Assembly (NCBI RefSeq): GCF_041821085.1
Contig: NZ_JBGUAZ010000002.1
Coordinates: 558,001 to 622,000, forward strand
Source of the DNA: Natrinema sp. HArc-T2
Lineage (GTDB): Archaea; Halobacteriota; Halobacteria; Halobacteriales; Natrialbaceae
Direction: 5' to 3'
Length of the DNA stretch: 64,000 nt
The first letter of the stretch is position 1. Every line of letters starts with the position of its first letter. Positions 1 to 64,000 of this stretch are shown piece after piece. The notes under the pieces are model-generated. The model saw nothing but the letters and a program-made list of their open reading frames with translations. It was not told the origin of the DNA and ran no database searches. The translations under genes were made by a program, and so were the position numbers.

Positions 1-1081
1 TCTCCGAGATCGCACCCGCGTTCTGCGGTGCCTGCAAGATTGCGAACCGCTCACCCATGTTCTCACAGTGAGCGACGAGCGCCTCAGTCAGCCCCTCGAT
101 CTCGTTTTCGTCAGGGACACACATGAGTGAGACATCGTCGAGCTCCCTGAACGCCGCAAGACCGGTTCGCATCCCGGGCTTGTCGATTCCTTCGTAGTCA
201 CTCAGCGACACCGCCTCGGTCTCGGGCATTGCCGAGAGATCAGAGACAACGTTGACATCAACCTCCATTTCACCGGCACGGACCTCCTCGAGCTCCGCCT
301 GCAGCTCCTCCTGTGACTGGGATGCATCGATGTCGAACGGTTTGGCGATCCCCTGGAGCGCGGTGTAGTCTCGGTCCTCGAGATCTGGGGGGATGTAAGC
401 AGCAGTCTCCGACTCATCGTCGACCTCGATTAGCCCACCGTCGGTGTACTCCTCCGGGACCTCTCGAGAGAGCCAAGAGAGCCCTTCGGCGGGTCGACCG
501 TCGCCTTGCTGTTCGAGGTTGACGAGTACGGATCCCGGGATCTGTTTCTCGTAGAACTGGCTGGATTCGGGATCTGCCGACATGTCCTCGTAGACTTCTT
601 CGATGTCGGGTGCGGGATCGGGCTGATCAGATGCGGGTTTGCTGACCGCCTCGAGCTCACACGACCAGTATCGCAGCGTCAGTGTGAAATACTCGTTCTC
701 GCCGTCGTCGACGATCGCGGCGATGGAACTTCCCCATGCGCCCGGCCCGATCGCTTCGACGGCGATGACGTCGTTTCGGTCCTCGTCGACGAGCGTCGTC
801 GTCGCGACGTCCGTCGGCTCGGCGGCTGCGACGCGGCCGACGTAGCAGCGACTCCCGCCGTTTTTGAAGAACCCGTCGACAGCCGCATCGAGATCAGATG
901 ATCGTGGACTCGAGCCGAACGTTCGTTCGAATTCGGAAACACTCGTTACGAGTGTCGGTTCGACAGGGCCGCGCTCCGTTTCTCCAAGAAAGCCAGCAGT
1001 GCTGGTGCTGACACCTTCGACGGATTTGGTGCCGCTGTCGACTTCTTCGACGTATACGCCTGGTGAGAGGTATTCTGGCAT
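1..1081 (-). CDS. Contractile injection system / phage tail sheath protein (3' part outside window)
   Basis: Sheath subunit of a contractile phage-tail-like particle; sheath contraction drives the inner tube through a target membrane. The gene starts at ATG 1081 and is still open at base 1, giving about 360 residues of the N-terminal and middle region. The N-terminus (MPEYLSPGVYVEEVDSG, then STAGFLGETERGP) is the hallmark opening of the sheath family, followed by the GFF-x-NGG-x-R-CYVGRV stretch typical of the first sheath domain. A strong Shine-Dalgarno (GGAGGAG, complement of about 1086-1092) sits 7-12 nt before the start, unusual among the mostly leaderless genes here. It is divergent from the CIS-associated gene at 1485; tube genes would be expected beyond the left edge. 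The family call is secure; whether the particle is intracellular or extracellular cannot be told. Confidence 0.93.
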   Translation of the reverse strand, partial: MPEYLSPGVYVEEVDSGTKSVEGVSTSTAGFLGETERGPVEPTLVTSVSEFERTFGSSPRSSDLDAAVDGFFKNGGSRCYVGRVAAAEPTDVATTTLVDEDRNDVIAVEAIGPGAWGSSIAAIVDDGENEYFTLTLRYWSCELEAVSKPASDQPDPAPDIEEVYEDMSADPESSQFYEKQIPGSVLVNLEQQGDGRPAEGLSWLSREVPEEYTDGGLIEVDDESETAAYIPPDLEDRDYTALQGIAKPFDIDASQSQEELQAELEEVRAGEMEVDVNVVSDLSAMPETEAVSLSDYEGIDKPGMRTGLAAFRELDDVSLMCVPDENEIEGLTEALVAHCENMGERFAILQAPQNAGAISE

Positions 1082-1484
1082 TCGTGTCACTCCTCCTATC
1101 AGTTGTGTGGCGACACTATATTCGACTACATATACTATAAAACTTACTTATTTAAGATAGATGAAAATAGTGGCAATGGCTGTAATTTACAGGTATCTAT
1201 TGGCTGTTTTAATCTACAAAATACTGTCTAACCCGGGATGAAATGAAGTTAGAAAATAGTTCGCTACGATAGTAGCCACTGAGAATCAGTGCACAGCTGA
1301 CCGCACGGAGGCTATGCGATCTCTGTGTGAACCGTTTCAGTTGTTACGATAGATTGCTGTCACAGTGATCGGAGCGAGCGCAGTTCGTCTGCGACCGTTG
1401 CCTCCTGTATATTTCAGTATGTTAAACCACTCATTTCTATCCTTCCGCTACGATTAAATATGTGTGAAACGCTAACTGAACGAC
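1082..1484. promoter_or_regulatory. AT-rich divergent intergenic region between two CIS genes
   Basis: This 403-bp stretch holds no gene that I can support. It is markedly richer in A+T than its surroundings, above all at 1118-1215. For the sheath gene (minus) a TATA-like TTTTATAG lies around 1136-1143, with a strong Shine-Dalgarno near 1086-1092. For the plus-strand gene a TATA-like GATTAAATATG lies at about 1452-1462, some 25-30 nt before ATG 1485, which predicts a leaderless or nearly leaderless transcript. The two CIS genes therefore appear to be fired from one divergent control region, with leadered translation on one side and leaderless on the other. Confidence 0.5.
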
Positions 1485-2738
1485 ATGAACCGCGATACGG
1501 ACAATCGGAATGGGGAACGAGGCAGTCTCTCTCAGTTTCGCAAGAACCGCTTCTTTAGCGGGAAACTGATGACGCCCCGTGATATGGACGCAGAACAGGC
1601 GTACCACGCCGAGCGGTTGCACACGTTCGCCCGGTTCGTCGCCGGACGTGGCGTCGTCTACGGACTCGAGGTGCAATCGATCAACGACACCGGCGACGGA
1701 CTCGAGGTGACGATCGAGCCTGGCATCGCGCTGGACGGAAACGGTCGACCGATCGTCGTCGACCGGGTAACGACCGCGTCGCTTCCACACCCCTCTGGAG
1801 ACGAACTTTCACTCTACATTCAGTACGACGAGATCGCACTGGAACCGGTTCCAGTTCCGAATACCGACGACGCCATCGACGACGAATCGACGGCGAATCG
1901 GACGCTCGAGAGCTTCGAGCTGACGTACCGAGAGGAAACGAGTGACGACCGCACGCAACGACCAGCCGTCGAGATCCCGGACATCGAGAGCGACTGTCCC
2001 GATGCGGAATCGGTCTCCCAGCAACTCCTCGAGCGATACCACGACCAATACCGGTCTTCGATCCCGTCCGACTCGGAGACGGGGGTGTTTCTCGGTTCGT
2101 TCGAGCGGACGCCCGACGGTGACTGGACGGACTCAGAGGCGTCGGCACCTCGGGAGTTCGTCTACGATCACGACCTGCTCTTTGGGACGATCATCGACCA
2201 TATCACGGACACCGACAACCCCCACCGAACGCCGGTCGAACGGGAGCCGCCCGACATCCCGGACGATATTACGGCGGTTTCGGATCGACTCGACGCCCTC
2301 GAGACCGACATCGGGCGTGTCAAACAGGATCAGGCTGCGCTGACCCGATATGTCATGCGCAAGACGCTCACAGAGCGGGCGCGCGTTTTCGACGCCCTCG
2401 CAGAGCGGTTAGAACGGCGGACGAGCGAGGGCGACGGCTGCCGACTCGCTCGTGAGCTCGCCACGACCGCTCGCACAGCCAGTGAACAGGCTTGTGAGAG
2501 TGAGGACGCCTACCGTCGTCACGTCCAGCACGTCCTCGAGCAACTGATCGATCTTGGCGACCGACTCGAGGGGACGACGACCGAAGCGAGTCTCGAGCGC
2601 TATCTCAGATCTGTCTCCGACCTGCAGGAAACGCTCGAGGACGACGGCACCGTACTCGCGTTGGCCGAGACACAGGATCGCGTCTGCGAGGCCGCGGATG
2701 CACTCGAGGTCCTCGTCGATATCGTTCCGGACGAGTGA
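1485..2738 (+). CDS. CIS-associated protein with N-terminal FFSGKL-type domain
   Basis: 417 residues, acidic. The N-terminal 100 residues contain RFFSGKLMTPRDMDAEQAYH, then RGVVYGLEV and an E-P-G-x-A-x-D-x-x-G-R-x-I-V motif. From family memory this architecture recurs in proteins encoded inside CIS and phage-tail-like clusters, where it is thought to form a small beta-rich domain at the baseplate or tail tip; the exact role is not established. The C-terminal half (from about residue 250) is predicted helical and rich in D, E, R and L, possibly coiled coil. It is divergent from the sheath gene. Its 3' end lies only 48 nt from the convergent 3' end of the E2 gene. The start is ATG 1485, matched to a TATA-like box 25-30 nt upstream. 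Confidence 0.7.
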   Translation: MNRDTDNRNGERGSLSQFRKNRFFSGKLMTPRDMDAEQAYHAERLHTFARFVAGRGVVYGLEVQSINDTGDGLEVTIEPGIALDGNGRPIVVDRVTTASLPHPSGDELSLYIQYDEIALEPVPVPNTDDAIDDESTANRTLESFELTYREETSDDRTQRPAVEIPDIESDCPDAESVSQQLLERYHDQYRSSIPSDSETGVFLGSFERTPDGDWTDSEASAPREFVYDHDLLFGTIIDHITDTDNPHRTPVEREPPDIPDDITAVSDRLDALETDIGRVKQDQAALTRYVMRKTLTERARVFDALAERLERRTSEGDGCRLARELATTARTASEQACESEDAYRRHVQHVLEQLIDLGDRLEGTTTEASLERYLRSVSDLQETLEDDGTVLALAETQDRVCEAADALEVLVDIVPDE

Positions 2739-2786
2739 CGACTGGCCGTCGATCACGACGCGACGGCCGATGGGGGAGCCCTCGAG

Positions 2787-4379
2787 TCACTCGAGCAAGA
2801 GGAGATCCGGCTGCTCGAGGTACTCCATGACGGTGTTCGTAAACCGGGCACCGACAGCACCGTCGACCAGCCGGTGGTCGAACGACAGCGAGAGGGTCAG
2901 CACCGAGCGGGGTTCGATCGATTCCGTGCCATGCTCGTCGGTGACGACGCGTGGCTTGCGCTTGATTTCGCCGATCGCGAGGATGCCCGCTTCGGGGTAG
3001 TTGATGATCGGCGTGGCGTATTCGCCGCCGATGCCACCGACGTTGGTGATCGTAAACGTCGATCCCTGGAGGTCCTCGGGACTGATCGTCCGGTCGCGAG
3101 CCGTCTGGACGAGTTCGTTCATTTCCGACGACAGTTGCAACAGCCCCTTCCGGTCGGCGTCGTCGACGACTGGCACCATCAGCCCGACATCGGTCGCAGT
3201 TGCGACACCGATGTTGTAGTAATCGCGGTAGACGATCTCGTCGTTCTCCTCGTCGATGACCGCGTTCAGCTCGGGGTATTCGTTCAGGGCCGCCACGACG
3301 GCCTTCATGATAAACGGCATGTAGGTCAACCGGATCCCCTTCTCCTCGGCGCGGGGTTTGAGCGTCTCGCGCGTCTCGACGAGGGCTGTCACATCGACCT
3401 CGTCGTGGTGGGTGACGTGAGGCGCGTTGTATTTGGACTCGACCATCGCCTCGGCGACCGTCTTGCGAACGCCACGGAACGGCTCGCGGCGTTCGCGCTC
3501 GCCGGGCGCGAACTCGGTCCCCGTCGTTCCGACCGGTTCGCCCGCTTCGACCGCCTCGCGATCCGCTTCTTGTGCCTGCCGCTGTGTCTCGGCGTACTCC
3601 CGAACTGCCTCGGGCGTGACGAACGCCTCGCCGTCGCGTTCTTCGGTGGCTGGGACAGCGTCGATATCGATGCCTTCCTCCCCGGCGAGCCGCCGGGTCG
3701 CAGGTGCTGCCAGGGTCGTCTCGCGATCGGCGGCCTCGAGTCGCGCCGATGATGGGGTCCGATCGGAAGCCGCCGGCTCGACTTCGCCAGACCCAATGGT
3801 GTCAGCGCCGTTCTCATCGACAGTCGCCGCGGGTTCGGCGTCGGTCACAGGCTCCTGTGACTGGGGCTGTTCCGGCTCCGTCTCGGCGATTCCGCCGGTA
3901 GCTGCCCGCACGTCGGCTGCAGTGATTCGACCACCGGGGCCGCTTCCGTCGATACTCGAGAGGTCCAGTCCCTGTTCGCGGGCCATGCGACGCACGCGCG
4001 GTGGTGCGAAGACCCTGCCGTCAGGCGGCGTGACGTCCTCGGCTTCGGCTCCGGTCGCGCCGGGACTTCCGGTAGCGTCGTCGGCTGGTTCGCTCGGCTC
4101 GGGTTCCGCGGTCGCTTCTGTCGGTTCGGCTTCCGTGTCGCCTGCGACATCGAACGAGATGATCACCGTTCCAACTGGGACGACCTCGCCTTCTTCGACG
4201 TGTAACTCGCGGACGGTCCCGTCGACCGGTGCGGGCACCTCTACGAGGGCTTTGTCGGTTTCGACCTCCGCGACTGGCTGGTCCTCCGCAACCTCGTCGC
4301 CTGTGTCGACCAGCCACGAGACCAGTTCCCCCTCGGCGACGCCTTCGCCGACGTCGGGGAGTTCGAACTCTCTGACCAT
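2787..4379 (-). CDS. pdhC: 2-oxoacid dehydrogenase E2, dihydrolipoyl acyltransferase
   Basis: Core acyltransferase of the 2-oxoacid dehydrogenase complex; it moves the acyl group from E1-bound thiamine diphosphate via lipoamide to CoA. 530 residues. The lipoyl domain is at 1-80 with the lipoylated lysine K43 in ETDKALVEV. An acidic Ala/Pro/Glu linker follows, then a peripheral-subunit-binding domain at about 124-160 (APPRVRRMAREQGLDL...GGRITAADV) and a second, degenerate-looking one at about 224-262 (APATRRLAGEEGIDID). The catalytic domain runs from about 298 to the end with SFDHRLVDGA, whose His and Asp are catalytic. It starts 1 nt after the E1-beta stop, so the three genes form one operon with lipA upstream. 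In Haloferax the physiological substrate of this complex is unresolved, because pyruvate is oxidised mainly by the ferredoxin enzyme; the pdh name is by homology. No E3 gene follows. Confidence 0.95.
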   Translation of the reverse strand: MVREFELPDVGEGVAEGELVSWLVDTGDEVAEDQPVAEVETDKALVEVPAPVDGTVRELHVEEGEVVPVGTVIISFDVAGDTEAEPTEATAEPEPSEPADDATGSPGATGAEAEDVTPPDGRVFAPPRVRRMAREQGLDLSSIDGSGPGGRITAADVRAATGGIAETEPEQPQSQEPVTDAEPAATVDENGADTIGSGEVEPAASDRTPSSARLEAADRETTLAAPATRRLAGEEGIDIDAVPATEERDGEAFVTPEAVREYAETQRQAQEADREAVEAGEPVGTTGTEFAPGERERREPFRGVRKTVAEAMVESKYNAPHVTHHDEVDVTALVETRETLKPRAEEKGIRLTYMPFIMKAVVAALNEYPELNAVIDEENDEIVYRDYYNIGVATATDVGLMVPVVDDADRKGLLQLSSEMNELVQTARDRTISPEDLQGSTFTITNVGGIGGEYATPIINYPEAGILAIGEIKRKPRVVTDEHGTESIEPRSVLTLSLSFDHRLVDGAVGARFTNTVMEYLEQPDLLLLE

Positions 4380-4380
4380 G

Positions 4381-5373
4381 TTAGAACCCCACAGCGTCTC
4401 GAATCCCGTCCTCGATGCGGGCCGGTTCGGGCAGGTAGTAGTCCTCGAGCGCGTACAGCGGGAACGGTGTGTCGAAGCCCGTAATGCGCTCGACCGGCGC
4501 TTCCTGATAGAGCAGCGCCTCCTCCTGGAGGGTCGCGGTGATCTCGGCTCCGAGGCCGCCCGTCTTGGGTGCCTCGTGGACGACAGCGGCGCGACCGGTC
4601 TTTTTGAACGACTCGACGATCGTCTCTTCGTCTAACGGGGAGAGCGTCCGCAGGTCGATCACCTCGACGTCAATCTCGCCCGCGAGATTGTCGGCGGCCT
4701 CGAGCGTTGGCCGGGTCATCGCACCCCACGTGTAGACCGAAATGTCGGATCCCTCACGGCGGACTGCGGCCTCACCGATCGGGATCTCGTAGGACTCGCT
4801 GGGGACTTCCTCGCGGAAGGCCCGATAGATGAGCTTTGGCTCGAGGAAGATCACCGGATCGGGACTCCGAACCGCGCTGGTGAGCAATCCCTTGGTGTCG
4901 TACGGCGTCGAGGGGATGACGACTTTGAGCCCGGGCTGGTGGACGAACATCGCTTCGGTCGACTCGGAATGGTGTTCGGGCGCGCGGATACCGCCGCCGT
5001 AGGGGGCCCGAACCACCATCGGACACGTATACCGACCGCGCGAGCGCGTCCGCAGGCGAGCGGCGTGGGAGACGATCTGGTCGAACGCGGGGTAGATAAA
5101 GCCCATGAACTGGATCTCGGAGACCGGGCGCTTCCCGTAGGCTGCCATCCCGATCGCCGTACCGACGATACCCGATTCTGCGAGCGGAGTGTCGATCACC
5201 CGGTTTTCGCCGAACGCCTCGTAGAGGCCGTCGGTCGCGCGGAAGACGCCGCCGTTCTCGCCGACGTCCTCGCCCATGACGATGACGTCGTCGTCGCGTT
5301 CCATCTCCGTGTGCAGTCCGTCTCGGACTGCCTCGACCAGCGTGAGATTCTCTGCTTGTGATTGTGTCGCCAT
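4381..5373 (-). CDS. pdhB: 2-oxoacid dehydrogenase E1 component, beta subunit
   Basis: 330 residues from ATG 5373 (MATQSQAENLTLVEAVRDGL). The frame stays open upstream to 5832, but that extension overlaps the E1-alpha gene and is not coding. With E1-alpha it forms the alpha2beta2 thiamine-diphosphate decarboxylase of the complex. Family landmarks are MGEDVGENGGVFRATDGL near the N-terminus, the TPLAESGIVGTAIGMA block, the EIQFMGFIYPAFDQI segment, and the C-terminal transketolase-type domain with VIDLRTLSPLDEETI and HEAPKTGGLGAEI. It starts 4 nt after the E1-alpha stop and ends 1 nt before the E2 start, so translation is very likely coupled. Length matches the family. Confidence 0.96.
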   Translation of the reverse strand: MATQSQAENLTLVEAVRDGLHTEMERDDDVIVMGEDVGENGGVFRATDGLYEAFGENRVIDTPLAESGIVGTAIGMAAYGKRPVSEIQFMGFIYPAFDQIVSHAARLRTRSRGRYTCPMVVRAPYGGGIRAPEHHSESTEAMFVHQPGLKVVIPSTPYDTKGLLTSAVRSPDPVIFLEPKLIYRAFREEVPSESYEIPIGEAAVRREGSDISVYTWGAMTRPTLEAADNLAGEIDVEVIDLRTLSPLDEETIVESFKKTGRAAVVHEAPKTGGLGAEITATLQEEALLYQEAPVERITGFDTPFPLYALEDYYLPEPARIEDGIRDAVGF

Positions 5374-5377
5374 CGTA

Positions 5378-6484
5378 TCACTCCAGGAGGGCGTCGTCGC
5401 CGTGTTGTTCGCGGATCGATTCGAAGTACTCGAGTTGGCGTTGCAGTCGGCGGGGCATTCCCTCGTAGACGTGTGCGAAGATCTCCTCGGGTTCGGGTCG
5501 TTCGAACGATTCGGCTCCGTCGATGGCGTCGGCAACATCGTCTTCGATCCGCGCTTCGATCGCGTCGACTCGCTCGTCGTCGAGCATGCCGTTCGACCGC
5601 AGATACGTCTCGAGGCGCGGGATCGGATCCTTCTGCTTCCAGCGCTCGACCTCCTCGTCGCTGCGGTAGACGGAAGGGTCGTCGGCGGTCGTGTGGGCTC
5701 CGAAGCGGTACTGGACCGCTTCGATGAGCGTCGGGCGGAGTTCGTCCTCGTCGGGATCTTTGGCCTTCTCGACGGCCTCGCGAGTAACCTTGTACACTGC
5801 CAGCGGGTCCATCCCGTCGACTTGCACGCCATCGAAGCCGTAGGCGGTGGCCTTCTGCGCTAAGGTCGCACTCGCCGTCTGGCGCTCGCGTGGGACCGAG
5901 ATGGCCCACTGGTTGTTGTTACAGAAGAAGACGGTCGGCGTATCGAAGACGCCGGCGAAGTTCAGCCCCTCGTGGAAGTCACCTTCCGAGGTCGCCCCGT
6001 CGCCGAAGTAACAGATGAACGCCTTCTCCTCGCCGTCGAGTTTCGAGGCCCAAGCAGCCCCCGTCGCGTGGGGGATCTGGGTCGCGATGGGGACCGCGAC
6101 CGAGAAGATGTTGACATCTTCGGGCATGTAGTTACCCCGTTCGTGGCCCATCCAGTAGAGCAGGGTTCGCTCGAGGGAGAGCCCCCGAACGAGGCCGACG
6201 CCGTGTTCGCGGTAGCTGGGGAAGACCCAGTCCTCAGTGTCTAAGGCGTGAGCGCTGCCGACCTGTGCGCCTTCCTGGCCGGACAGCGGCGGGTAGGTTC
6301 CCATCCGCCCCTGGCGCTGGAGGCTGACGGCCCGCTCGTCGAAGCGGCGCACGAGCCGCATCTGCTCGTACATCTCGACGAGTTCGTCCTCGGTGAGGTC
6401 CGGTACGTCGGCACCCTCTCGGACACGGCCCGCCTCGTCGAGTATCTGGACTCGCTCGCGGGGATCGCGCTGTATCGTACTCAC
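5378..6484 (-). CDS. pdhA: 2-oxoacid dehydrogenase E1 component, alpha subunit
   Basis: Decarboxylating subunit that binds thiamine diphosphate. The cofactor motif [18 protein letters not shown] is followed by [12 protein letters not shown], and the substrate-side segment [15 protein letters not shown] is present. The frame also allows a GTG start at 6496. I prefer GTG 6484 ([15 protein letters not shown], 368 residues) because a GGTGGG Shine-Dalgarno-like stretch precedes it by 5-10 nt and this N-terminus fits haloarchaeal relatives. A TATA-like CCTTTAGCC lies around 6527-6535 on the minus strand. First gene of the E1a-E1b-E2 operon; the spacing to E1b is 4 nt. Lipoyl synthase lies upstream in the same orientation, supplying the cofactor for E2. 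Confidence 0.95.
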
Positions 6485-6706
6485 GGGAAAACCCACCTAT
6501 ACATACCCTAGCACACGACCGCTCAGGCTAAAGGAGTTTCCCAAAATAGTTTACTACCCGAGACATTCTTCCCAGCGCCCCTCAGAAATGCCGTACGCAA
6601 CCGGACGATTGTGGACGGAACTGAACGGAACTGGCCATTTAGTGCCGATTATCGAATCTCAGGCGATGGACGGGAACGAGACTGGACGAACCAGCGTTCG
6701 ATCCAA

Positions 6707-7690
6707 CTACGTCTCGGTCTGCTGTGGCTGCGTCCGGCGTGCGTCGGCTCGCGCCTCCGCGACGCTTTTGCCCTCACGCAAGATGGCGTCGACGAACAGT
6801 TCGCCGGCCTTGTACGACGACCGCACCATCGGACCGCTCGCACAGTAGAGAAAGCCTAACTCCTCTTCGGCGACGCGCCGCCACGTCTCGTACTTGTCCG
6901 GGTGGTCGTAGCGTTGGACCTCGAGGTGGTTTCGCGAGGGCCGCAGGTACTGGCCGAGCGTGACGATGTCGACGCCGCGCTCGCGCAGGTCCGCAAGCGT
7001 CTGGTAAACCTCGTGATCGTACTCGCCGTGGCCGAGCATGATCGAGGTCTTGGTGTAAATGTCGGACTCTCGTTCGACTTGCTCGAGCACCGAGAGGCTC
7101 TGTTCGTAGCCCGCACGCCGGTCGCGGACGGGAAACTGCAGCCGTTCGACGGTTTCGACGTTGTGGGCGATCACGTCGGGCTCGGCGTCGATGATCTTCC
7201 GGACGAGGTGGTCTTCGCCCTGGAAGTCGGGGATAAGCACTTCCACGAGGATGCCGGGATGGCGGGCTTTGATCTCGCGGATCGTCTCCGCGAAGTGGCC
7301 CGCGCCCTGATCGGGGAGGTCGTCACGGTCGACGCTGGTCAGCACGACATAGTCCAGGCCGATCTCGGCGATGGCGCTCGCGACGTTTCCAGGTTCGTCG
7401 GGGTCGAGTGGCTCCATCCCGCCGGTCTGAACGTCACAGAAGTTGCAGCCTCGAGAGCAGCGATCGCCCATCAGCATGAACGTCGCCGTCCCACCGCGGT
7501 CCTGATTGCCGGCGCCGTCCGCGTCGCCGGCTTTGGTGCGTCCGGACCAACACTCGCCCAGGTTCGGACAGTTGGCCTCCTCGCAGACGGTGTGGAGTCC
7601 GTGGTCCCGAAGCGTCTCCCGAATGCCGGCGAACTCCCGTCCCGATGGCGGACGGCTCTTCAGCCAGTCAGGTTTGCGCGCGCGGCTCAT
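6707..7690 (-). CDS. lipA: Lipoyl synthase (radical SAM)
   Basis: Inserts two sulfurs into the octanoyl chain on E2-type domains to make lipoamide. 327 residues. The auxiliary cluster motif is CEEANCPNLGEC (C36, C41, C47); the radical-SAM cluster is CSRGCNFCD (C78, C82, C85). The C-terminal serine that ligates the auxiliary cluster fits RSSYKAGE near residue 300. Between the two motifs sits a haloarchaeal-looking insertion of about 15 residues (GRTKAGDADGAGNQDRGG). It is transcribed toward the E1a-E1b-E2 operon with a 210-bp gap, so it may have its own promoter but a shared function. It is divergent from the PH-domain gene at 7881. Confidence 0.96.
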   Translation of the reverse strand: MSRARKPDWLKSRPPSGREFAGIRETLRDHGLHTVCEEANCPNLGECWSGRTKAGDADGAGNQDRGGTATFMLMGDRCSRGCNFCDVQTGGMEPLDPDEPGNVASAIAEIGLDYVVLTSVDRDDLPDQGAGHFAETIREIKARHPGILVEVLIPDFQGEDHLVRKIIDAEPDVIAHNVETVERLQFPVRDRRAGYEQSLSVLEQVERESDIYTKTSIMLGHGEYDHEVYQTLADLRERGVDIVTLGQYLRPSRNHLEVQRYDHPDKYETWRRVAEEELGFLYCASGPMVRSSYKAGELFVDAILREGKSVAEARADARRTQPQQTET

Positions 7691-7880
7691 AGTGTGTCAT
7701 GGGACCGCGCGGTGAAAAACCGTGTCGGTCGTCTCGAGTTAGTAGCCGACTGTGCCGGCAGGTGACGCGGTCGGTCGCCAACTGATGATGGCGATGGATC
7801 GATCTAGTGCGCCAAATCGGCTGAACCTCTCCGTCAGAGCCGTTACGCACTCCATTCTGCCGGCAGCTTTACGGACGGCG

Positions 7881-8414
7881 ATGGACTACTCCGTTCCGAT
7901 GGCTTTCGGCTCGACACCCGACTGGTTTCACATCAGCGAGGACGAGGATATCGTCTGGGAGAGTCGGCCCCACCCGATCACGATGGGGGCCAGACTGCCG
8001 GTCGGGATCGGACTCGCGCTTGCGGGCCTGGTCGTCGCAGGCTGGAGCGTAATCGACGGCGGCACCCTCGTGGCGCTTCTCGGTCTCGGCCTGCTCGCCG
8101 TCGGCGTGGTCGTTGCGGTCGCCCGCTATCTCGTCTGGACGAACACCCGCTACGTCATCACCTCCTCGGAACTCTACAAGAAACGCGGTATCGTCTCGAG
8201 AGACGTCACCCAGTTTCGCCTCGAGCGCGTCCAGAACACCAGCCTCAGTCAGAGTGGGCTCGGTCGCCTGCTCGGCTACGGCGATCTGACGGTCTACACC
8301 GCCGGCTCCGGCGAGCCGGAGCTGACCTTCGAACGTGTCCCGCAGCCGGAGGTGGCGAGTAGCCGCCTCAGCGACCGGCTCGAGGTCGTCGCGACCGACG
8401 AATCGGCGCTCTGA
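7881..8414 (+). CDS. PH-domain (bPH2/YdbT-type) membrane protein
   Basis: About 177 residues from ATG 7881 (MDYSVPMAFGSTPDWFHISEDE). The open frame extends upstream to 7752, but that part looks non-coding. ATG 7899 is an alternative, supported by a TTTAC-type TATA element near 7868 at leaderless spacing. The layout is a short WFHISEDEDIVWESRPHP lead, two hydrophobic segments (about residues 40-56 and 60-82), then a cytoplasmic bPH2 domain with TNTRYVITSSELYKKRGI, RLERVQNTSLSQS and LTVYTAGSGEPELTF. This is the usual architecture of YdbS/YdbT-like proteins, whose function is generally unknown. It is followed 74 nt later by another membrane protein gene. Confidence 0.85.
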   Translation: MDYSVPMAFGSTPDWFHISEDEDIVWESRPHPITMGARLPVGIGLALAGLVVAGWSVIDGGTLVALLGLGLLAVGVVVAVARYLVWTNTRYVITSSELYKKRGIVSRDVTQFRLERVQNTSLSQSGLGRLLGYGDLTVYTAGSGEPELTFERVPQPEVASSRLSDRLEVVATDESAL

Positions 8415-8488
8415 TCGGCGAGCGTCGGAACCGACCGCTCGAAAAACCACAAAACCCATTAGCCGACTCGGCTTCGAGAGTCGGTACG

Positions 8489-9088: not shown

Positions 9089-9138
9089 GTTGGACGCGAA
9101 GGAAACGCCTTTGATAGACCGCCACCCGTTTCTGCCTG

Positions 9139-53212: not shown

Positions 53213-53275
53213 CCAACGAGATCACCTAACTGAGATGGTGTAACTCCTTTGCTGCTCGCTGTCGTAACACACAGT

Positions 53276-53758: not shown

Positions 53759-53793
53759 TCCACCGGGAACGAACCGACGGATCGGGTCGCCTC

Positions 53794-54213: not shown

Positions 54214-54407
54214 TGTGAGCTCCACCCATTGGCTATGGCTCGAAACATGAAATACCGCTGTTACGGTTCAACGAACTGGTATCGCGCTGAACGAAATTCG
54301 GGTGTTGAAATCGCACGGTAGCGATGTTACATCGACCGATCGGGGATGTCCTTGCAAATGCACCGCAGGGACGCAAGTGAGTCGGTGTCGTGTCTATAGC
54401 TAGCACG

Positions 54408-55742: not shown

Positions 55743-55856
55743 CGGCGAGCAGTCCCCGTTTTCGCGTTCTATCGACCGGCTGAAAGCGGAATCTGTGGGT
55801 CCTCGAGCCGCCGGTAGACCACCAGCAGCTATTTACCTGATGGTGCTAAAGCTGTT

Positions 55857-55872
55857 TTTAGAGATGTCTAAA
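55857..55872. promoter_or_regulatory. Putative DtxR/MntR/SirR-type operator upstream of the transporter gene
   Basis: Perfect inverted repeat TTTAGA-GATG-TCTAAA, 39 nt before ATG 55911 and overlapping the likely core promoter (TTTTTAG, CTTTACC). DtxR-family metalloregulators bind palindromes of this size and A/T-G-C pattern. Given the metal-transporter call for the gene, control by manganese or iron through such a regulator is a reasonable inference, not shown. Confidence 0.5.
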
Positions 55873-55910
55873 CTTTACCCGACCATCGATCAACCTGCGA
55901 GTGAGGTGCG

Positions 55911-57137
55911 ATGAACGAGCTGCTGGACGTGTTGTTCGCGTCGCTCCGGGACGGCTACGTCCAGGTGAGCGCGTTCGTTGCGGTGACGGTGCTTGCGTTC
56001 GGGCTGGTCCAGTATCGGACCGACGGCGCGCTCATCAGCGCGATCGAGGACAACGAGCGACTGCAGGTGCTCTTCGGCGGGCTGCTAGGACTGACGCCCG
56101 GCTGTGGCGGCGCGATCGTCGTCATGCCGCTGTACGTCCGTGGGACAGTCAGTTTCGGGACCGTCGTCGCGACGCTCGGCGCGACTGCGGGTGACTCGGC
56201 GTTCGTCATCCTCGCGCTCGCCCCCGAAGCCGCGCTCTACGCCTACGCTATCGCCTTTGCGGCCTCCGTCGCGACCGGCTATCTCGTCGATTCCGTCGGC
56301 CTCGGCGTCTCGCGGGTCGACGCTGCCGTCGCGCGACTCTCGCCTGCCGCGCGGCCCGACGGCGGTACTGCCGTCAACGGCGGTGTCACGCCGAATCCAG
56401 CCCATGACTACTGCGGGCCGGCACCGACTCACGCCCACGAGACGGGGCCGGATCGTCGCTCTCGAGTCCTCACACCCCTCTCCCATCTCGCACACGTCAC
56501 GTGGTGGATCGCCGCCGTCGCGGGACTGGTCCTCGGGACGCTCTACCTGCTTCGCGGCGGCCCCGAGGTCGCACTCGAGGTCGGCGTCGGCTTCGACGGC
56601 CTCTTTACGATCGTCGGCATCACCGGTGCAGTGCTGTCGCTGTACCTCTACCTGGTCGGTCGCCACTACGTCGGTGAAGGGGAGATCGCGCGGGCTCGAG
56701 ACTCCTTTCGCTCGACCTACGATACGCTCACCCACGCCGCGATGGAGACCAGCTTCGTCACCGTCTGGGTGCTCGTGGCCTTCCTCGTCTACGAGTACGC
56801 CGTGGTTCTGACGGGGCTGAACGTCGCCACCCTTGCCGCAACGGCGGGCGTGCTGGCTCCGATCGGCGGCGCAGCTGTGGGCCTGATCCCCGGCTGTGGC
56901 CCCCAGATCCTGCTGACAAGTGTCTATGCCGAGGGTGGCTTGCCTTTTTCGGCGCTGACCGCCAACGCGATCGCTCAAGATGGGGACGCCCTGTTCCCGC
57001 TGCTGGCCGTCGACGCCAAGGCTGCCGTCGTCGCGACTATCTACAACTTCCTCCCCGCCGTCGTCGTTGGCGTCGCACTCAACCTGCTGTGGGGGCCCGT
57101 CTTCGGCATGGCGGAGTTCGGCTTCGGCGTACTGTGA
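55911..57137 (+). CDS. Putative manganese transporter (ArsP_2-like, 10-TM inverted repeat)
   Basis: 408 residues, two homologous membrane halves. Half 1 has GLLGLTPGCGGAIVVMPLYV and half 2 GAAVGLIPGCGPQILLTSVY: the repeated G-L-x-P-G-C-G motif with inverted topology is the family core. Between them, a hydrophilic loop at about 160-190 has HDYCGPAPTHAHETGPDRR, a Cys/His-rich likely metal-binding site. Related proteins are annotated as manganese or organoarsenical transporters; the Mn choice rests on family memory and on the DtxR-like operator 39 nt upstream. The frame covers its full length from ATG 55911, and the N-terminus is not a signal peptide. Confidence 0.85.
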   Translation: MNELLDVLFASLRDGYVQVSAFVAVTVLAFGLVQYRTDGALISAIEDNERLQVLFGGLLGLTPGCGGAIVVMPLYVRGTVSFGTVVATLGATAGDSAFVILALAPEAALYAYAIAFAASVATGYLVDSVGLGVSRVDAAVARLSPAARPDGGTAVNGGVTPNPAHDYCGPAPTHAHETGPDRRSRVLTPLSHLAHVTWWIAAVAGLVLGTLYLLRGGPEVALEVGVGFDGLFTIVGITGAVLSLYLYLVGRHYVGEGEIARARDSFRSTYDTLTHAAMETSFVTVWVLVAFLVYEYAVVLTGLNVATLAATAGVLAPIGGAAVGLIPGCGPQILLTSVYAEGGLPFSALTANAIAQDGDALFPLLAVDAKAAVVATIYNFLPAVVVGVALNLLWGPVFGMAEFGFGVL

Positions 57138-57374
57138 GGGTGCTCCGAGCAGTATCGCGGCGTGTTCGGTGCTGTTGGTGGCGCAATCGTATTTCCACTC
57201 CCTTCACTAATCCGGTAGCATAGGACATTATATTTTAGTAGTATACTATAGATATTATGGGACAGATAATGGATAATATATTCGAGACGGACAACGGACT
57301 CTCGATGCGATCGGCTGATGCGAAATATAACGGCCTCTTCGACAGCGCTACAATCTGGGTGAACCGGTGAGACG
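57138..57374. promoter_or_regulatory. AT-rich gap at the border of the right-hand CIS region
   Basis: No gene is supported. A local A+T-rich patch at about 57208-57285 contains several TATA-like elements (TTATATTTTAG, GATAATATATTC) and a perfect 10-bp palindrome TAGTATACTA at 57239-57248. The patch is the likely promoter for the block starting at 57375. It also marks the change from housekeeping sequence to the CIS-linked, compositionally different block. Confidence 0.45.
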
Positions 57375-58499
57375 ATGCGCCGACTCTTACAGGCAAAAAC
57401 GGCTGTTCAAAAGCGGCTGCCCGCGGTTTCTCGACTCTCCGTCGCGGCGCTGCTTTTCGCGCTGGCGCTACTCGCTGTGGTTGTCGCAGCAAGTGTCGTC
57501 GAATCCGAATTCCCGTCGAGCACTTCCGTAGACGTGTGGGTCGCTTCATCGCGACTCGTCCTCTGGAGCACCATTGTCGTTCTCATGCTCGTCACGATCA
57601 GTGGCTATCTGCTCTCTCGACGGTACGAGGAGGTGCTCCTCGATCAGTGGAGTCAGTTGTCGAGTTGGGCGCAGGCGATCGTCGCTGGTATCGTCTGTGG
57701 AACGGTCGTTGCAATCGGTCTCGGTGTCGCCACTCTTGCTGGAGCGGTCCCGCTGGCGTTAGTCCCTGTGGGATCGCTGATCGCCTGGCCTGTTGCGACG
57801 GTCTGTACGCTCCGCCAGCGCCGCAAACCGCATGCGGACGATTCCTCGTCCGCGCTGGAGTCGCTACTTATCACGGTCGGATACGCGCAGGCCAAGCACC
57901 TCCAGACACGCACGCTCGCTGGCATCGTGGGTCTTGTCGGTGCCGTCCTCGGAAGCGTCGGCGTTCGTGTGCTGCTCTCGTGGTTCCCGTGGTTCGACGG
58001 GACCCTCACACCACTTCAGACTGCCGTCCTCGCTGTGTGTGGATGGCTACTCGCGACGGTGATCGTCTACAATCGCTACGCGTCGACGATCACCGATCGG
58101 ATCGATCTCCAGCTCGTTGCCGTCTCGAGCCCGGAACTACGGGACGGTCGCGAGCTGACGATCAAAAACACCGGAACCGTCCCCGTCGAGTTGACGCAAG
58201 CGAAGCTTCGTGATACGAACCGTGACTGCTATCAGTTCGGTGTCGGCGTCACGCTCGGACCGGGCGCGTGCTGCTCGTTCGCGGTTCCGGCGTCGTTTTC
58301 GCTCGAGTCGAATGAAACCACGATGGCTCTTCCGCTTGGGTATACGCTCACACAGGGGAGCGAACACCCGATTATTTACACTCGAGACGGCGAGCAGTAC
58401 GTCCTCCGGGAAGGGACTGAACTGCTGGATCGTGATTCCACCCGAGAGACGACCCGACAGACGGTCGCGCTAGGTGTCGAACCAACGCCACAGGAGTAG
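57375..58499 (+). CDS. Multi-pass membrane protein next to CIS genes
   Basis: 374 residues. Six predicted spans: about 21-42 (LSVAALLFALALLAVVVAAS), 58-80 (RLVLWSTIVVLMLVTISGYL), 98-119, 121-145, 178-200 (LAGIVGLVGAVLGSVGVRVL) and 210-230 (LQTAVLAVCGWLLATVIVYN). The C-terminal about 140 residues form a beta-rich domain (LQLVAVSSPELRDGRELTIK, NTGTVPVELTQAKLRDTNRD). No known family. It ends 18 nt before the giant CIS-region ORF on the same strand, so the two are probably co-transcribed. Inference: it could be a membrane partner of the injection particle, for assembly, docking or release. Confidence 0.75.
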   Translation: MRRLLQAKTAVQKRLPAVSRLSVAALLFALALLAVVVAASVVESEFPSSTSVDVWVASSRLVLWSTIVVLMLVTISGYLLSRRYEEVLLDQWSQLSSWAQAIVAGIVCGTVVAIGLGVATLAGAVPLALVPVGSLIAWPVATVCTLRQRRKPHADDSSSALESLLITVGYAQAKHLQTRTLAGIVGLVGAVLGSVGVRVLLSWFPWFDGTLTPLQTAVLAVCGWLLATVIVYNRYASTITDRIDLQLVAVSSPELRDGRELTIKNTGTVPVELTQAKLRDTNRDCYQFGVGVTLGPGACCSFAVPASFSLESNETTMALPLGYTLTQGSEHPIIYTRDGEQYVLREGTELLDRDSTRETTRQTVALGVEPTPQE

Positions 58500-58517: not shown

Positions 58518-61500
58518 ATGCTATGTGACGATCTCGAATGCGAGTCGACACTGCGAGAGATCAGCGTACTTCGCCAGCAGCCGACGACGGACGATTCGTC
58601 GATAGGAATCGAGTCGAACGACCGTCGATCGCCCGCTCGACTCGAGTCCAGCGTCACGGCGATCGCGACGCTGGCGCCCGATCGATTGGCCGGCGGACTC
58701 GGTGTCCGTATTGCCCGGAAACGGAGTCCGGTCGAGTTGTTGTTTCGGTTACCTCTTCTGACACGTCCTGATGACGGGCTGGGAGACGAGTCGGCGGTTT
58801 CGGTCGTGGCTCCGTCTCCGTTAACCGGGACGAAAACAGGACATCGCAAGAGTTCGGGTTCGGCTGTCATCCCAGCAAGCTATCTGAACTGTACCGACCA
58901 GTCTGGCGGTATCCACAATCAGTCCGCCATCGAGCCGATACGTGCTCCTCGTTCGGCCACCGACACGGTGGGTAACTCGGGTGCAGCGTCACGACGACCG
59001 ACCGAGTCACTCTGGACCGATGCAAAGCGGACACGACGACGGAAGCGACGGTCTCCGACGGGGGTGAGACGATCGATGTTCACGGGAGTCGGTACGGAGC
59101 AACTAGACTCCCTCGTCTCGGATGACAGCGGACGAGCGATAGTCATGCCCAACGTGGCTGGATGCGGCTGGTCACACGCACTCGCCACTCGAACCGTGCC
59201 GTCGATCGACGAGACTGCTGACCCGTCCGCCGGTCACGCTCCCTCGAGCCACGTCGTCGACCGTTCCGATACGACGCTCGAGCTTGTAGTCCAGCAGACT
59301 GGCCTTTATGACGGTACAACGGATCCAATCGCGCGACCCGAGCGGACCGAGACACGAGGTGTGGCTCCACCCGCAGACGACAGCGGACAGAGTCGGCTCT
59401 CTGAGGCTGGTTCGACCGTCTGGATGACGGATCGACACACGGTGACAGATGCTGTGGCCGACAATCGACACACTCCTATCTGGCACCGTTCGATGCGACG
59501 GCGCGATGGACTGGCGTTGTGCCAGTATCGTCCGCGACGGAACGATCGTGCACGTGGCGGTCTCGATCCTCTCGCCGCCCGCTCTTCCGACGACCGACAC
59601 GCTCGGACACGCGACCGTCCACCTAGAGGGTTCGATACACTAGATACCGTCTCTCACCCTCACTGTGTGTCTCGATTGCGCTCGCCGTTCTCGTCCCACC
59701 GGTCGACATCGTTCACGACGAGCACCGATCGGAGTCCGAAGCAGCCACGCCTCGAACTGACCGCTTCGATTGCGCCACACGAGGGACCGATCCCCGCGCA
59801 GTCTCGTCTCGTTTCGGTCGTGTCTCGAGGTGTGCACACGCCGGTCCGATACGCTCGAACGGCCCGCAATCCAGTGGCTCGAGCGCCAACGGCTTCGACT
59901 TCCCGCGTCGTTACGAGTGAGTCACAGCGAACGGCTACCCCGCCCACAGTGCCGATGTGGCTGTCGATCGACACTCATGGCTCTCGTGTCCCACGCAGTC
60001 GGTTGTGGCTGCCGCCGCCCACTCATCAGGATCGCAATGTCTCTGGTGGCACCGCCAGCCAGCATCCGCTTCGTTTACAGCGTGTAACCGGGGCTGACCC
60101 CGTCCATCCGTCGGGAACCGCCTCGCCGACCGCGGGTCTGTCCACTCCATTCGATAGCCGACGTATTCGCCACAACCCCGGGCCCGACACACAGCGTCGC
60201 ACTAACGAAGTGCGATCACGAACCGACGAGCGAGCGCCATCGGATCGTGCTCGCCAACCTCGCCGTCTCCTGTCGATTCGATCCGAGAGCGACGCTGCTG
60301 TCGGACTGATCGCACGCAGACCGAGCATGGAGGGGGCAGTCGAGGGAGATGGTGTCGGTTCGGTTCGGTCGATCCGGAGGCGATCTCCGATCCCGAGGGC
60401 CGTCTCGTCTTCGGTCAGTGCGACCCATGCCGATAGCAGCCGATCAGACCGACAACAGCCGGTCTCCGTGAAAACGAACTCGGCCACCACTGCACACGGA
60501 GTGTCACCGGTTGAACGACGCTGGCCACAACAAGTGTCACAACCAGCAATGTCGTTGGGACGGCTCGCCGCTCCGCGATCCGCTCGAGCAGTGTCGCACC
60601 TCGGTTCGCACCGCGCCCTCGAGCGTGCGGTCAATATGATGACCGAACGGAAGTCCCACAGCGACGACAGCGTTCGCCTCTCGCCCCGGCCTCTCTCAGC
60701 GTTGCGAGTGGTACGGTCATCGATCCAGCGACCAGAACGCTCTCGCCGTTTACGACGCGAAACTGGGCGCATCGACGATACCGTGGTTGGTCTGTGGGAA
60801 ACCGTGACCACACCGAACAGATCTCTATACGTGAACCCGTCCGACACGGCGTCTCGAATGCGAATTGCCGCCGATCGAATCAGGAACAGGGCTGTTAGCG
60901 CTGGCTCCACGGATTCGGTATCTGAGATCCGAGGGCTCTACCAGTCGAACCCCCTCGCTCGCGGCGGTGCATTCGGCACAATGCCTGTCCAGCGCGACCG
61001 ACCGGGTGAAAACGAACTCGACGCGAGTTCCCGGCTGCTGGTGCCCCCAACGGTTACTGACGACCGATCGCATTCCCGCTTGTCCGACAGGACGACAGCA
61101 ACGGCGCTCACGATGATCGAATCGTCGGGACCGATAGCCGGTTCAGGACGACCGGCCTCGAGCGATCGACACCTCGTCGCAAGACTGCAATCGAGCGCAC
61201 GGACATCGCGGGAATCGTCTCACTCACGGCATGGATACGAGCCGAGCGGGCATGGTCGAAACGGGATCGACCCGACCTGTGGCGTTCGATCACCACCGCT
61301 TGGGATCAACGAGACAACCCGACGACAGCACTCGTCGTGGATACAGCGCAAACAACGTGGTGAGAGACGCGTCTCGGTGGGTGGCGGTCGATCAGCGGAC
61401 GTATCGACTGCGTTCGATGTCGTCGAGTTGCCCTCGGATTCGATTGCGCCGCCGAGGAGCGGCCCACGATCGGGCCCACCGTCCGTGATTGGGATAGAAA

Positions 61501-62843
61501 TTCGTGGCGATTGCGGTGCTTGTTCGACCGGTGCCGACGATCGGGGTCGTAATCTGCAGGACGGAACGGCACCGCTCTCGCCGACGCGCCCTGCTGTCTC
61601 ACCGTCTCGTGTCGCTGTCACTCTTCCTCGAACGACACGTTCGGAGCCGACCGTGGCAACGAGTCGACACCGATACCGGCCTGCTGGCGATCGGACTCGT
61701 CTACGTACCGATCGTTCGATTCCTGACCTGAGCGACGCTGGCGTGCCGTCACGTGAACCCGTGTGGCCCAAGTGCGGTGATCGGACAGTGTCGCCTCGTC
61801 TCTTTCGGACGACAAGACGATCCTCGCACTCTACCCTGTGGACGGCGGCTTCCCGAGCCCCCGTCGTCTCTCAGCTAGATTACGTCGGGTCTCTCGCCTT
61901 GAAGCTCCCAGTCGCGGCCACCGTCGACGAAACTGATGACCGTGTCGGTATCGATACTGCCGACTCGGTTACGGCTCCACAGCCCCGTCTGTCGATCGCG
62001 AGCCCAGCCAACTTCAGGAATCGGCGGTTCCAACCCAGCCGCCGTCTGCGGCGGCGGTTGTCGACGGCGGACTCTTCGGCGCGTCGATCGCTCGACGAAC
62101 CCCGACTCGAGAACGATCGTCTGGGGGCTCCGTCGCTTGTATACCCTCCTCGAGAGTACGGCTCGGAAGCTATCGTGACGGCACTAGATTCGCCGTCACG
62201 CGGACGGTGGGTGGAATATACTTCGAACCGGATGTATAGAACAACAAATAATAGTGTTGAATTAATAGAAGAAAATAAAATGGAAGTAGGGCTGCGACCG
62301 AACGCAGGAACAGAACGTCCCTCATTGACGTACCGAACAACGGCAGATGCGGATATGCCATCCGTCGATCGGGACAGGTCGCATCGACTGACTGACGATG
62401 TGTCGAACTCGACAGCCGCGTCGACTGGAGCCTCTCGTGGCTCCAGCCCACGGCGTTCCAGTCGGAATCTCAGGCAGGATCGACACCAGCGCTGGGGGCC
62501 GGAACATGCAGCGCCAGCCGATGACGATAGCGACCGAACGCAAGCAGCGTTCCGTTCGGATACCGATCCGAATCCGGGCTCGGCACATCGTGGGCAATCT
62601 GGGAGTCGTGACGACGGACATCCCTGGCCGGACGAAACACGACAATCACCGATCCAACGACCGGGGCTATCGATCGATCCCGCTCCTGACTCGACTCACC
62701 ACCACGGGCACCGCTTCGATGGCGTCGACGTGCCATCGGGCACTGACCCACGCTTCGACGCCGATGTCGATCGTGCCGTCCAGGAACTCTATCGGAAACT
62801 CGAGCGGAAACTCAGGATCGAGCGCGACCGGAGGGGGCTGTAG
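58518..62843 (+). CDS. Giant Arg/Ser/Thr-rich, mostly disordered protein of the CIS region
   Basis: 1441 residues from ATG 58518 (MLCDDLECESTLREISVLRQ). Composition is unlike the acidic haloarchaeal norm: Arg, Ser, Thr and Pro dominate and Lys is scarce. Little globular structure is expected, apart from a short N-terminal part and a C-terminal helix. The last 25 residues (VDRAVQELYRKLERKLRIER, then DRRGL) form an amphipathic helix. From memory, similar endings occur in low-complexity proteins encoded just before the LysM adaptor in other CIS clusters. The frame is open for 4.3 kb; at about 60% GC chance would give a stop roughly every 30 codons, so the frame is under selection. ATG of the LysM gene follows the stop directly. 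An internal AT-rich stretch at 62216-62280 raises the option of a second start at ATG 62281. Confidence 0.65.
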   Translation: MLCDDLECESTLREISVLRQQPTTDDSSIGIESNDRRSPARLESSVTAIATLAPDRLAGGLGVRIARKRSPVELLFRLPLLTRPDDGLGDESAVSVVAPSPLTGTKTGHRKSSGSAVIPASYLNCTDQSGGIHNQSAIEPIRAPRSATDTVGNSGAASRRPTESLWTDAKRTRRRKRRSPTGVRRSMFTGVGTEQLDSLVSDDSGRAIVMPNVAGCGWSHALATRTVPSIDETADPSAGHAPSSHVVDRSDTTLELVVQQTGLYDGTTDPIARPERTETRGVAPPADDSGQSRLSEAGSTVWMTDRHTVTDAVADNRHTPIWHRSMRRRDGLALCQYRPRRNDRARGGLDPLAARSSDDRHARTRDRPPRGFDTLDTVSHPHCVSRLRSPFSSHRSTSFTTSTDRSPKQPRLELTASIAPHEGPIPAQSRLVSVVSRGVHTPVRYARTARNPVARAPTASTSRVVTSESQRTATPPTVPMWLSIDTHGSRVPRSRLWLPPPTHQDRNVSGGTASQHPLRLQRVTGADPVHPSGTASPTAGLSTPFDSRRIRHNPGPDTQRRTNEVRSRTDERAPSDRARQPRRLLSIRSESDAAVGLIARRPSMEGAVEGDGVGSVRSIRRRSPIPRAVSSSVSATHADSSRSDRQQPVSVKTNSATTAHGVSPVERRWPQQVSQPAMSLGRLAAPRSARAVSHLGSHRALERAVNMMTERKSHSDDSVRLSPRPLSALRVVRSSIQRPERSRRLRRETGRIDDTVVGLWETVTTPNRSLYVNPSDTASRMRIAADRIRNRAVSAGSTDSVSEIRGLYQSNPLARGGAFGTMPVQRDRPGENELDASSRLLVPPTVTDDRSHSRLSDRTTATALTMIESSGPIAGSGRPASSDRHLVARLQSSARTSRESSHSRHGYEPSGHGRNGIDPTCGVRSPPLGINETTRRQHSSWIQRKQRGERRVSVGGGRSADVSTAFDVVELPSDSIAPPRSGPRSGPPSVIGIEIRGDCGACSTGADDRGRNLQDGTAPLSPTRPAVSPSRVAVTLPRTTRSEPTVATSRHRYRPAGDRTRLRTDRSIPDLSDAGVPSREPVWPKCGDRTVSPRLFRTTRRSSHSTLWTAASRAPVVSQLDYVGSLALKLPVAATVDETDDRVGIDTADSVTAPQPRLSIASPANFRNRRFQPSRRLRRRLSTADSSARRSLDEPRLENDRLGAPSLVYPPREYGSEAIVTALDSPSRGRWVEYTSNRMYRTTNNSVELIEENKMEVGLRPNAGTERPSLTYRTTADADMPSVDRDRSHRLTDDVSNSTAASTGASRGSSPRRSSRNLRQDRHQRWGPEHAAPADDDSDRTQAAFRSDTDPNPGSAHRGQSGSRDDGHPWPDETRQSPIQRPGLSIDPAPDSTHHHGHRFDGVDVPSGTDPRFDADVDRAVQELYRKLERKLRIERDRRGL
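62216..62280 (+). other. AT-rich island inside the giant ORF, possible internal promoter
   Basis: About 65 bp that are strikingly A+T-rich (GAATATACTTCG, AACAACAAATAATAG, GAATTAATAGAAG, AAAATAAA) compared with both sides. It stays open in frame, coding for Asn/Glu/Thr-rich sequence, and ends exactly at ATG 62281 (MEVGLRPNAGTERPSLTYRT). The layout looks like a promoter before a 187-codon gene that ends at 62843. Either the giant ORF contains an internal promoter, or two genes are joined in one frame. Confidence 0.45.
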
Positions 62844-63521: not shown

Positions 63522-63523
63522 CT

Positions 63524-64000
63524 ATGCAGACTGGAACGAGCATTCAGCCACGCTACTCGCCGCGGTTCAGGGTCGATGTCGGTGATACGACGTTTCAGGA
63601 ACCGGGCGGTCGAATCGCAGATCTCGTCGTCGAGACGACGCTCGACGGCGCGGACCGGTTTTCGTTCACGCTCAACTTTCCGTTCGACGAGGAACTCGGC
63701 GAGTTCAGCGGGCTGACGTGGGACGATTTCGCAATCGGGACGGCCATCGAAATCGCGATGGGGTATGGCGGCGACGGAACCCTGACACCGTTGCTAACTG
63801 GCTCGATTCGATCGATCAACGCCGAGTTCACGACCGATCGAGGACCGTCGGTTACGGTCTCCGGCTACGGGCTACTCTGGGAGCTCATGCAAGGAACGAG
63901 TTCGGAGTCGTGGACGGAGACCACGGTCGGAGAGGTCGTCACGGACGTGCTATCGTCGTACTCGTTTTCGACGGTCGACGTCTCGGACGCGGCGATCAAC
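63524..64000 (+). CDS. CIS spike protein, VgrG/phage late control D type (3' part outside window)
   Basis: First 159 residues of a gene that runs off the right edge; start ATG 63524, 2 nt after the LysM gene stop. The N-terminus (MQTGTSIQPRYSPRFRVDVG, then DLVVETTLDGADRFSFTLNF) and the segment with ELGEFSGLTWDDF and VTVSGYGLLWELMQGTSSES match the gp27-like hub domain of VgrG/GPD proteins that trimerise to form the spike base. The gene order LysM-VgrG is the standard CIS order, expected to be followed by gp25-like and baseplate genes. Confidence 0.9.
   Translation, partial: MQTGTSIQPRYSPRFRVDVGDTTFQEPGGRIADLVVETTLDGADRFSFTLNFPFDEELGEFSGLTWDDFAIGTAIEIAMGYGGDGTLTPLLTGSIRSINAEFTTDRGPSVTVSGYGLLWELMQGTSSESWTETTVGEVVTDVLSSYSFSTVDVSDAAIN

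Follow-up and report, generated by a model that had tools for sequence, protein, structure and literature searches.

CIS genes at both ends of the window

The window analysed here is a stretch of 64,000 nucleotides from Natrinema sp. HArc-T2 (G000), corresponding to positions 558001-622000 of contig C2 in a genome of 3,732,888 bases and 32 contigs, and it carries genes of a contractile injection system (CIS) at each end. We consider it very probable that these represent the two halves of one membrane-anchored haloarchaeal CIS, akin to a type VI secretion system (T6SS), that was split by a single inversion of approximately 60 kb. Window coordinates are used throughout, with negative values lying to the left of the window edge and values above 64000 beyond the right edge, and gene assignments on both sides derive from Pfam matches unless another basis is named. 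The comparison set comprised 125 genomes of the family; the 29 genomes of the genus divide into 14 that are sheath-positive and 15 that are sheath-negative. Named relatives of the sheath occur in Natrinema altunense and N. gari (87% identity) and in N. thermotolerans (67%).

The left half is transcribed outwards on the reverse strand. It begins with a Cis2-like tail sheath gene (PF04984/PF17482) running from 1090 to -640, of which 1..1090 lies in the window, followed downstream by a gp19-type tube gene (-1153..-695), a gene for a Zn-ribbon protein of 185 residues with a weak PHROG match to a tail assembly chaperone (-1868..-1311), and a second gp19-type tube gene, tube2 (-2641..-2186). The forward-strand uvrB gene (-4733..-2676) converges on tube2 with 34 bp between them. 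Divergent from the sheath gene is an open reading frame (ORF) of 417 codons (1485..2738, forward strand), mapped in relatives and without a convincing Pfam match. This 417-aa gene adjoins the sheath gene in every family locus in which both were mapped, except for G122, G039 and G036, where it lies beside Tail_P2_I. Next to it, on the reverse strand, are the E2, E1-beta, E1-alpha and lipoyl synthase genes of a 2-oxoacid dehydrogenase operon (2787..7690).

The right half is transcribed outwards on the forward strand and is preceded in the window by genes for NrfD and an ArsP2-type exporter. Its first gene (57375..58499) encodes a putative membrane anchor whose hydrophobicity indicates six hydrophobic segments, with a soluble domain of ~140 residues at the C-terminus; a profile of this protein, seven rows of which were drawn from the same genus, matches 13 of the 14 sheath-positive genus genomes (G072 being the exception) and none of the 15 sheath-negative ones. 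A giant ORF of 1441 residues, of low complexity and rich in Arg and Ser (58518..62843), separates the anchor gene from that of a Cis7-like protein with CIS_tube and LysM domains (PF19266, PF01476; 62844..63521). There follow a GPD hub gene (63524..64552, in the window to 64000), a Phage_base_V spike gene (64549-65286), gp25 (65592-65990), with a PAAR-like ORF identified by eye in the gap between these two, two Baseplate_J genes (65987-69175 and 69236-71215) and Tail_P2_I (71219-73348). The E3 gene, lpdA, encoding dihydrolipoamide dehydrogenase, lies beyond these at 73472-74923. The initial annotation, made from the window alone, had described an outward sheath gene with a divergent neighbour on the left and an outward series of membrane protein, giant ORF, LysM protein and VgrG on the right, preceded by transporter and NrfD genes in place of sheath or tube. 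Pfam and hydrophobicity bear out this description on both sides.

A tandem pair of GNAT acetyltransferase genes was also noted within the window, at 52733-53758.

A single inversion and an interrupted operon

In seven of the 14 sheath-positive genus genomes (G073, G060, G061, G052, G051, G054 and G064), the same genes form one unsplit locus, ordered E1/E2, the 417-aa gene on the opposite strand, sheath, tube, Zn-ribbon, tube2, anchor, giant ORF, LysM and onwards to Tail_P2_I and E3; the sheath of G064 is cut by a contig end, and the locus of G054 was read in part, its sheath, anchor and E2 being placed through search matches. These loci share the E2/E3 insertion and constitute the sister clade of G000 in the trees of both halves, but they lack the inversion. 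The synteny comparison that the initial annotation had recommended thus does yield an intact locus, and flipping the segment from tube2 to the ArsP2-type gene of G000 restores its order. This segment of ~59.8 kb spans -2641..57137 (1..57137 within the window) and was delimited by gene order against both unsplit and sheath-negative genomes. Comparison of junctions between genomes places the left breakpoint in the interval -2675..-2642, between uvrB and tube2, and the right one in 57138..57229, and both breaks are intergenic. A split by a single inversion had been proposed from the window alone, with one breakpoint at 57.1-58.5 kb, a range that contains our interval, and the other between the tube and linker genes to the left of the window; the left breakpoint lies just downstream of tube2.

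The uvrB/tube2 junction is common to five separately assembled genomes (G000, G057, G058, G059 and G072). uvrB and E2 lie on one strand, ~110 kb or less apart, in 20 of the 29 genus genomes, including sheath-negative ones, and the inversion is therefore the derived state. The two genes lie on opposite strands and at most 10 kb apart only in G000, G057, G058 and G072; in G059 they fall on separate contigs, G056, G060 and G061 have them on opposite strands at a distance of 456-717 kb, and no uvrB was found in G076. Furthermore, uvrB and the ArsP2 gene are convergent and 0.3-4.3 kb apart in six of the seven non-inverted regions examined (G052, G062, G065, G069, G073 and G077). Hence, we read the rearrangement as one derived inversion, older than the divergence of the five genomes that share it, and not as an assembly artefact of G000. 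No inverted repeat above chance joins the 2-kb junction regions of G000, the best matches being 11 bp exact and 14 bp at 93%. In G072, an insertion of ~1.1 kb, transposase-like by eye, sits between uvrB and tube2 (locus L069, about 13600-14750).

The sheath-negative genus mates indicate where the locus was inserted. In 14 of these 15 genomes 62-117 bases separate the E2 and E3 matches (~336 kb in G063), from which it follows that the CIS had entered the operon between E2 and E3. It occupies that position, now or before the inversion, in 12 of the 14 sheath-positive genus genomes, and in those 12 E3 now follows the baseplate genes, or their remnants in G058 and G072. In the other two, G068 and G075, the CIS lies elsewhere and E2 and E3 are adjacent. 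The inversion consequently separated the E1/E2 genes of the operon from E3 as well.

One gene complement, probably in four places

Sheath, tube, baseplate and spike genes are all present in G000 when the two sides are pooled. The sheath has a single match in the whole genome, and the two right-hand genes are the sole Baseplate_J matches. A complete second set, which would have spoken for two systems, did not turn up in genome-wide searches with the sheath and Baseplate_J, the tube, LysM, hub and gp25 genes not each having been searched across the genome. The initial annotation had named, as support for a split system, sheath and tube genes beyond the left edge only, and gp25, baseplate and AAA+ ATPase genes beyond the right edge only. 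The genes lie on the sides so named except for the ATPase, which is absent from the flank of the right half and present at other loci. The genes of G000 do not form a single cluster, as 56 kb separates the sheath gene from the anchor gene in divergent halves and the cap and ATPase genes are elsewhere; clustering, however, is a criterion of searches and no part of how a CIS machine works.

The CIS cap and the AAA+ ATPase are indeed both encoded in G000, at two loci apart from both halves. The cap gene (Pvc16_N; Pvc16/DUF4255) lies at C2:202456-203058 (9456-10058 of locus L225), in opposite orientation, with a nusA-type KH gene on one side and rps12 on the other, next to RNA polymerase genes. 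The same site carries the cap gene without an ATPase in G057 and G058, and with an AAA+ ATPase beside it in G059, G072, G060 and G061 (for the last two, the polymerase side only was seen), while in G073, G052 and G051 both genes sit between those of the anchor and the giant ORF, inside the locus and unlike G000. The nearest ATPase of G000, a paralogue of the cap-side one, is encoded at C4:344783-346801. A search with this paralogue matches 14 of the 29 genus genomes, exactly the 14 with a sheath, at 63% or more in 11, partially at 48-52% in G064 and G068, and at 51% to the cap-side gene in G072. A single eCIS_core (PF13699) gene is divergently oriented to it; this family has matches in all 11 sheath-positive genomes and in none of the 7 sheath-negative ones among the 18 of 29 genus genomes searched. 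From this co-occurrence and family membership, the cap and ATPase/eCIS_core loci probably serve the split machine. A 279-aa ORF lies directly downstream of the eCIS_core gene, and together these genes (C4; 6492-9801 of locus L226) form a possible cargo or immunity locus.

Arrangement of the halves across the family

A sheath match occurs in 32 of the 125 family genomes, 30 of which also carry a Baseplate_J protein. Thirteen of these 30 have a single locus with the sheath half first and three have the baseplate half first (G034, G046, G075), while the halves face each other in two (G012, G096). In five they share a contig at a distance of 46 kb to 0.9 Mb (G000, G057, G068, G030, G033), and in four they lie on contigs whose margins put at least 41 kb between them (G029, G044, G045, G047); G059 is inferred to be inverted, and G036 and G121 have no assigned arrangement. 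The halves are thus apart, or inferred to be so, in 10 of 30 genomes. The two halves nonetheless have congruent trees: across 33 haloarchaeal loci r=0.96, with no value above 0.47 in 999 permutations. As G000 and G068 do not group together in either tree, we count at least two independent separations on these module trees.

Alternative explanations and the state of the machine

The occurrence of more than one cap or ATPase gene in some family genomes would suit two independent CIS loci flanking the window, each with its own complete gene set, an option that the initial annotation had left standing. With one sheath match, Baseplate_J confined to the right, and halves that are orthologous to parts of one locus in sister genomes, we regard it as extremely improbable. 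Scarcely more credible is an ancestral separation, with the contiguous Natrinema locus assembled later: the halves are commonly far apart elsewhere in the family, but all seven Firmicutes loci that were mapped and in which LysM was found have the unsplit order (sheath-tube-Zn-tube2-LysM-hub), and among genus members it is the inverted arrangement that stands apart, also in comparison with sheath-negative genomes.

The most serious alternative is that the inversion disabled the system, whose genes persist by chance en route to loss. A TATA-like element at 57230..57241 on the forward strand, a putative promoter of the anchor gene, lies in G000 just inside the right break on the anchor side and is kept in split and unsplit genomes: of 10 genomes tested, 8 (four of them split) have it 144-147 bases upstream of the anchor start, and the distance is 159 in G061 and 172 in G052 when counted from the start of the match rather than the start codon. 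The control for this motif is weak, since the pattern was defined with the sequences already in view and the shuffles preserved nothing beyond base composition. An AT-rich element upstream of the sheath gene is likewise conserved in 6 of 6 aligned genomes. Given these conserved elements, the break seems to fall between two transcription units, both apparently intact.

The mapped structural genes are open in G000, G057 and G059 (the G059 sheath being cut by a contig end), lineages that parted after the inversion. Ratios of nonsynonymous to synonymous substitution (dN/dS) between G000 and G057 are 0.10 for sheath, 0.05 for tube, 0.10 for Zn-ribbon, 0.08 for tube2 and 0.24 for the 417-aa gene on the left, and 0.08 for LysM, 0.07 for hub, 0.16 for base_V, 0.12 for gp25, 0.19 and 0.18 for Baseplate_J and 0.26 for Tail_P2_I on the right, alongside 0.05, 0.08, 0.20 and 0.09 for the comparison genes uvrB, E3, E2 and NrfD. 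Between G000 and G059 the values are much the same, with 0.41 for the anchor, 0.72 for the giant and 0.16 for the sheath, the last raised by the contig cut, and the close pair G057-G059 gives 1.49 for tube2 on very few changes and 0.31 for the contig-cut sheath. Purifying selection on both halves in these three genomes suggests that the machine still works.

Several observations weigh against a split but functional system. The anchor and giant genes evolve fastest of the set between G000 and G057 (0.35 and 0.68). The cap-side AAA+ gene is missing from the cap site of G000, which has only the paralogue, and is gone from G057 and G058 too. The baseplate half has decayed in G058 and G072, such that the split state may be an early stage of loss: in G058 a deletion fuses the start of the giant ORF to Tail_P2_I, the sheath lacks its first 139 residues and the 417-aa gene lacks 183, whereas in G072 nearly all of the baseplate half is lost and the alignment of tube2, at 74%, extends no further than residue 138. 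As to the inversion itself, the seventh non-inverted region, that of G066, has no ArsP2 gene within 11 kb of uvrB. Loss by different lesions in two of five inverted genomes speaks for a relic; however, 2/5 against 0/7 unsplit falls short of significance (Fisher p about 0.15, by hand), and the open genes with dN/dS mostly at 0.05-0.26 after the inversion speak against one. We therefore judge a relic to be unlikely, though considerably less so than either of the alternatives above.

The giant ORF as a candidate length ruler

An open frame of 1366-2160 residues, measured stop to stop, directly precedes LysM in 18 of 18 family genomes, the value for G096 being a minimum of 1294 because the sequence stretch used ends within the frame. 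These ORFs are rich in Arg, Ser and Thr and drift in sequence in the middle, while all 18 share a C-terminal motif and some a short N-terminal one (by eye). Among 80 loci compared, the C-terminal motif also ends ORFs of 1005-1970 residues in nine bacterial loci and a 1007-residue ORF in one haloarchaeal metagenome-assembled genome; LysM comes next in three of the five such bacterial loci that were mapped, while in the other two LysM was not matched. The giant ORF itself matches nothing in Pfam or PHROG, and hence no known tape-measure family.

A spurious ORF would be consistent with a composition that is odd for a haloarchaeon and with a coding score that did not pick the giant, although it did not pick the anchor, gp25 or first Baseplate_J genes either. 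We consider this less likely, given the open frame in 18 of 18 genomes, its conserved end and a pN below pS. The giant may feasibly act as a length ruler, a candidate role for a protein whose disorder we judge from composition. The authors of three reports on haloarchaeal and Streptomyces CIS identified no tape-measure gene (PMC11566945, PMC10066040, PMC12237407), and PMC12237407 describes particles of one length. Speaking against such a role is the CIS of Haloferax larsenii, which has a protein of 178 residues in its place, so that a giant is not universal in CIS. A Paenibacillus locus (L109) has only ~0.9 kb between tube2 and LysM, and in the table of a Streptomyces clavuligerus plasmid no giant-type gene stands before LysM, where ~3 kb separates the listed genes. 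The record of a Paenibacillus plasmid is unannotated at the corresponding place.

Relation to known systems and implications

The CIS described here belongs to a known kind, being a rearranged form of the haloarchaeal T6SS-like CIS; what is new is that it is split, where it was inserted, that its cap and ATPase genes are dispersed, and that its rearranged halves are co-inherited. In PMC11566945, 41 clusters found from a sheath search are described as having well-conserved synteny. Extended particles docked at the cytoplasmic membrane and contact-dependent killing are criteria of that type of CIS. The Halogeometricum borinquense CIS of that report resembles ours in its sheath, tube, LysM, spike, gp25 and two Cis11 (Baseplate_J) genes, in structural genes arranged in two subclusters, in eCIS_core (DUF4157) proteins and in having no recognised tape measure. 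Its protein Hbor_38620, with six transmembrane (TM) segments and a soluble domain of ~150 residues, is encoded upstream of the core cluster, and the anchor of G000 is likened to it by description only. Its subclusters, however, are 8.7 kb apart on one plasmid, as opposed to 56 kb apart and divergent in G000 with cap and ATPase at two more loci (PMC11566945). Plasmid pHl5678-1 of H. larsenii encodes the same structural genes together with a DUF4255 cap, an AAA+ ATPase and DUF4157, but places the baseplate half before the sheath half in addition to having the 178-aa protein. The Streptomyces coelicolor CIS, according to PMC12237407, likewise has no tape-measure gene found and two Cis11 copies per wedge, but forms one cluster and employs CisA, a membrane protein with a single TM segment. 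Literature searches, preprints lying outside their scope, returned no title on a split haloarchaeal CIS or a Natrinema CIS; one article (PMC12893001) is listed as containing both terms 'Natrinema' and 'contractile injection'.

Synteny shows that in the ancestor the structural genes stood together between E2 and E3. One inversion of ~60 kb, with breaks at tube2/anchor and uvrB/ArsP2-type, then parted the sheath and tube genes from the anchor and baseplate half, and if each transcription unit kept its start region, as the conserved elements imply, both halves could be expressed and their products may assemble in trans. The machine of G000 would accordingly draw on four places: one for the shaft, one for baseplate and anchor, one for the cap, and one for the AAA+ ATPase together with a candidate eCIS_core cargo. 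By analogy with H. borinquense, its job may be contact-dependent antagonism.

It is tempting to speculate further that haloarchaeal CIS comprise portable blocks (shaft; anchor, giant and baseplate; cap; ATPase and cargo) that are repeatedly rearranged yet co-inherited, placed even inside housekeeping operons such as those of 2-oxoacid dehydrogenase and RNA polymerase, and that the giant is the missing length ruler of this CIS class, held at both ends, with a middle that changes in sequence while remaining open and of great length. We advance this joint reading tentatively, as a whole more doubtful than not.

Proximity-based surveys of CIS can overlook such genomes or misread them as broken. 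The split amounts to a natural experiment in which a phage-tail machine is assembled from distant operons, and the sister genomes display its piecemeal loss. The giant protein would render length control testable in CIS that have no known tape measure.

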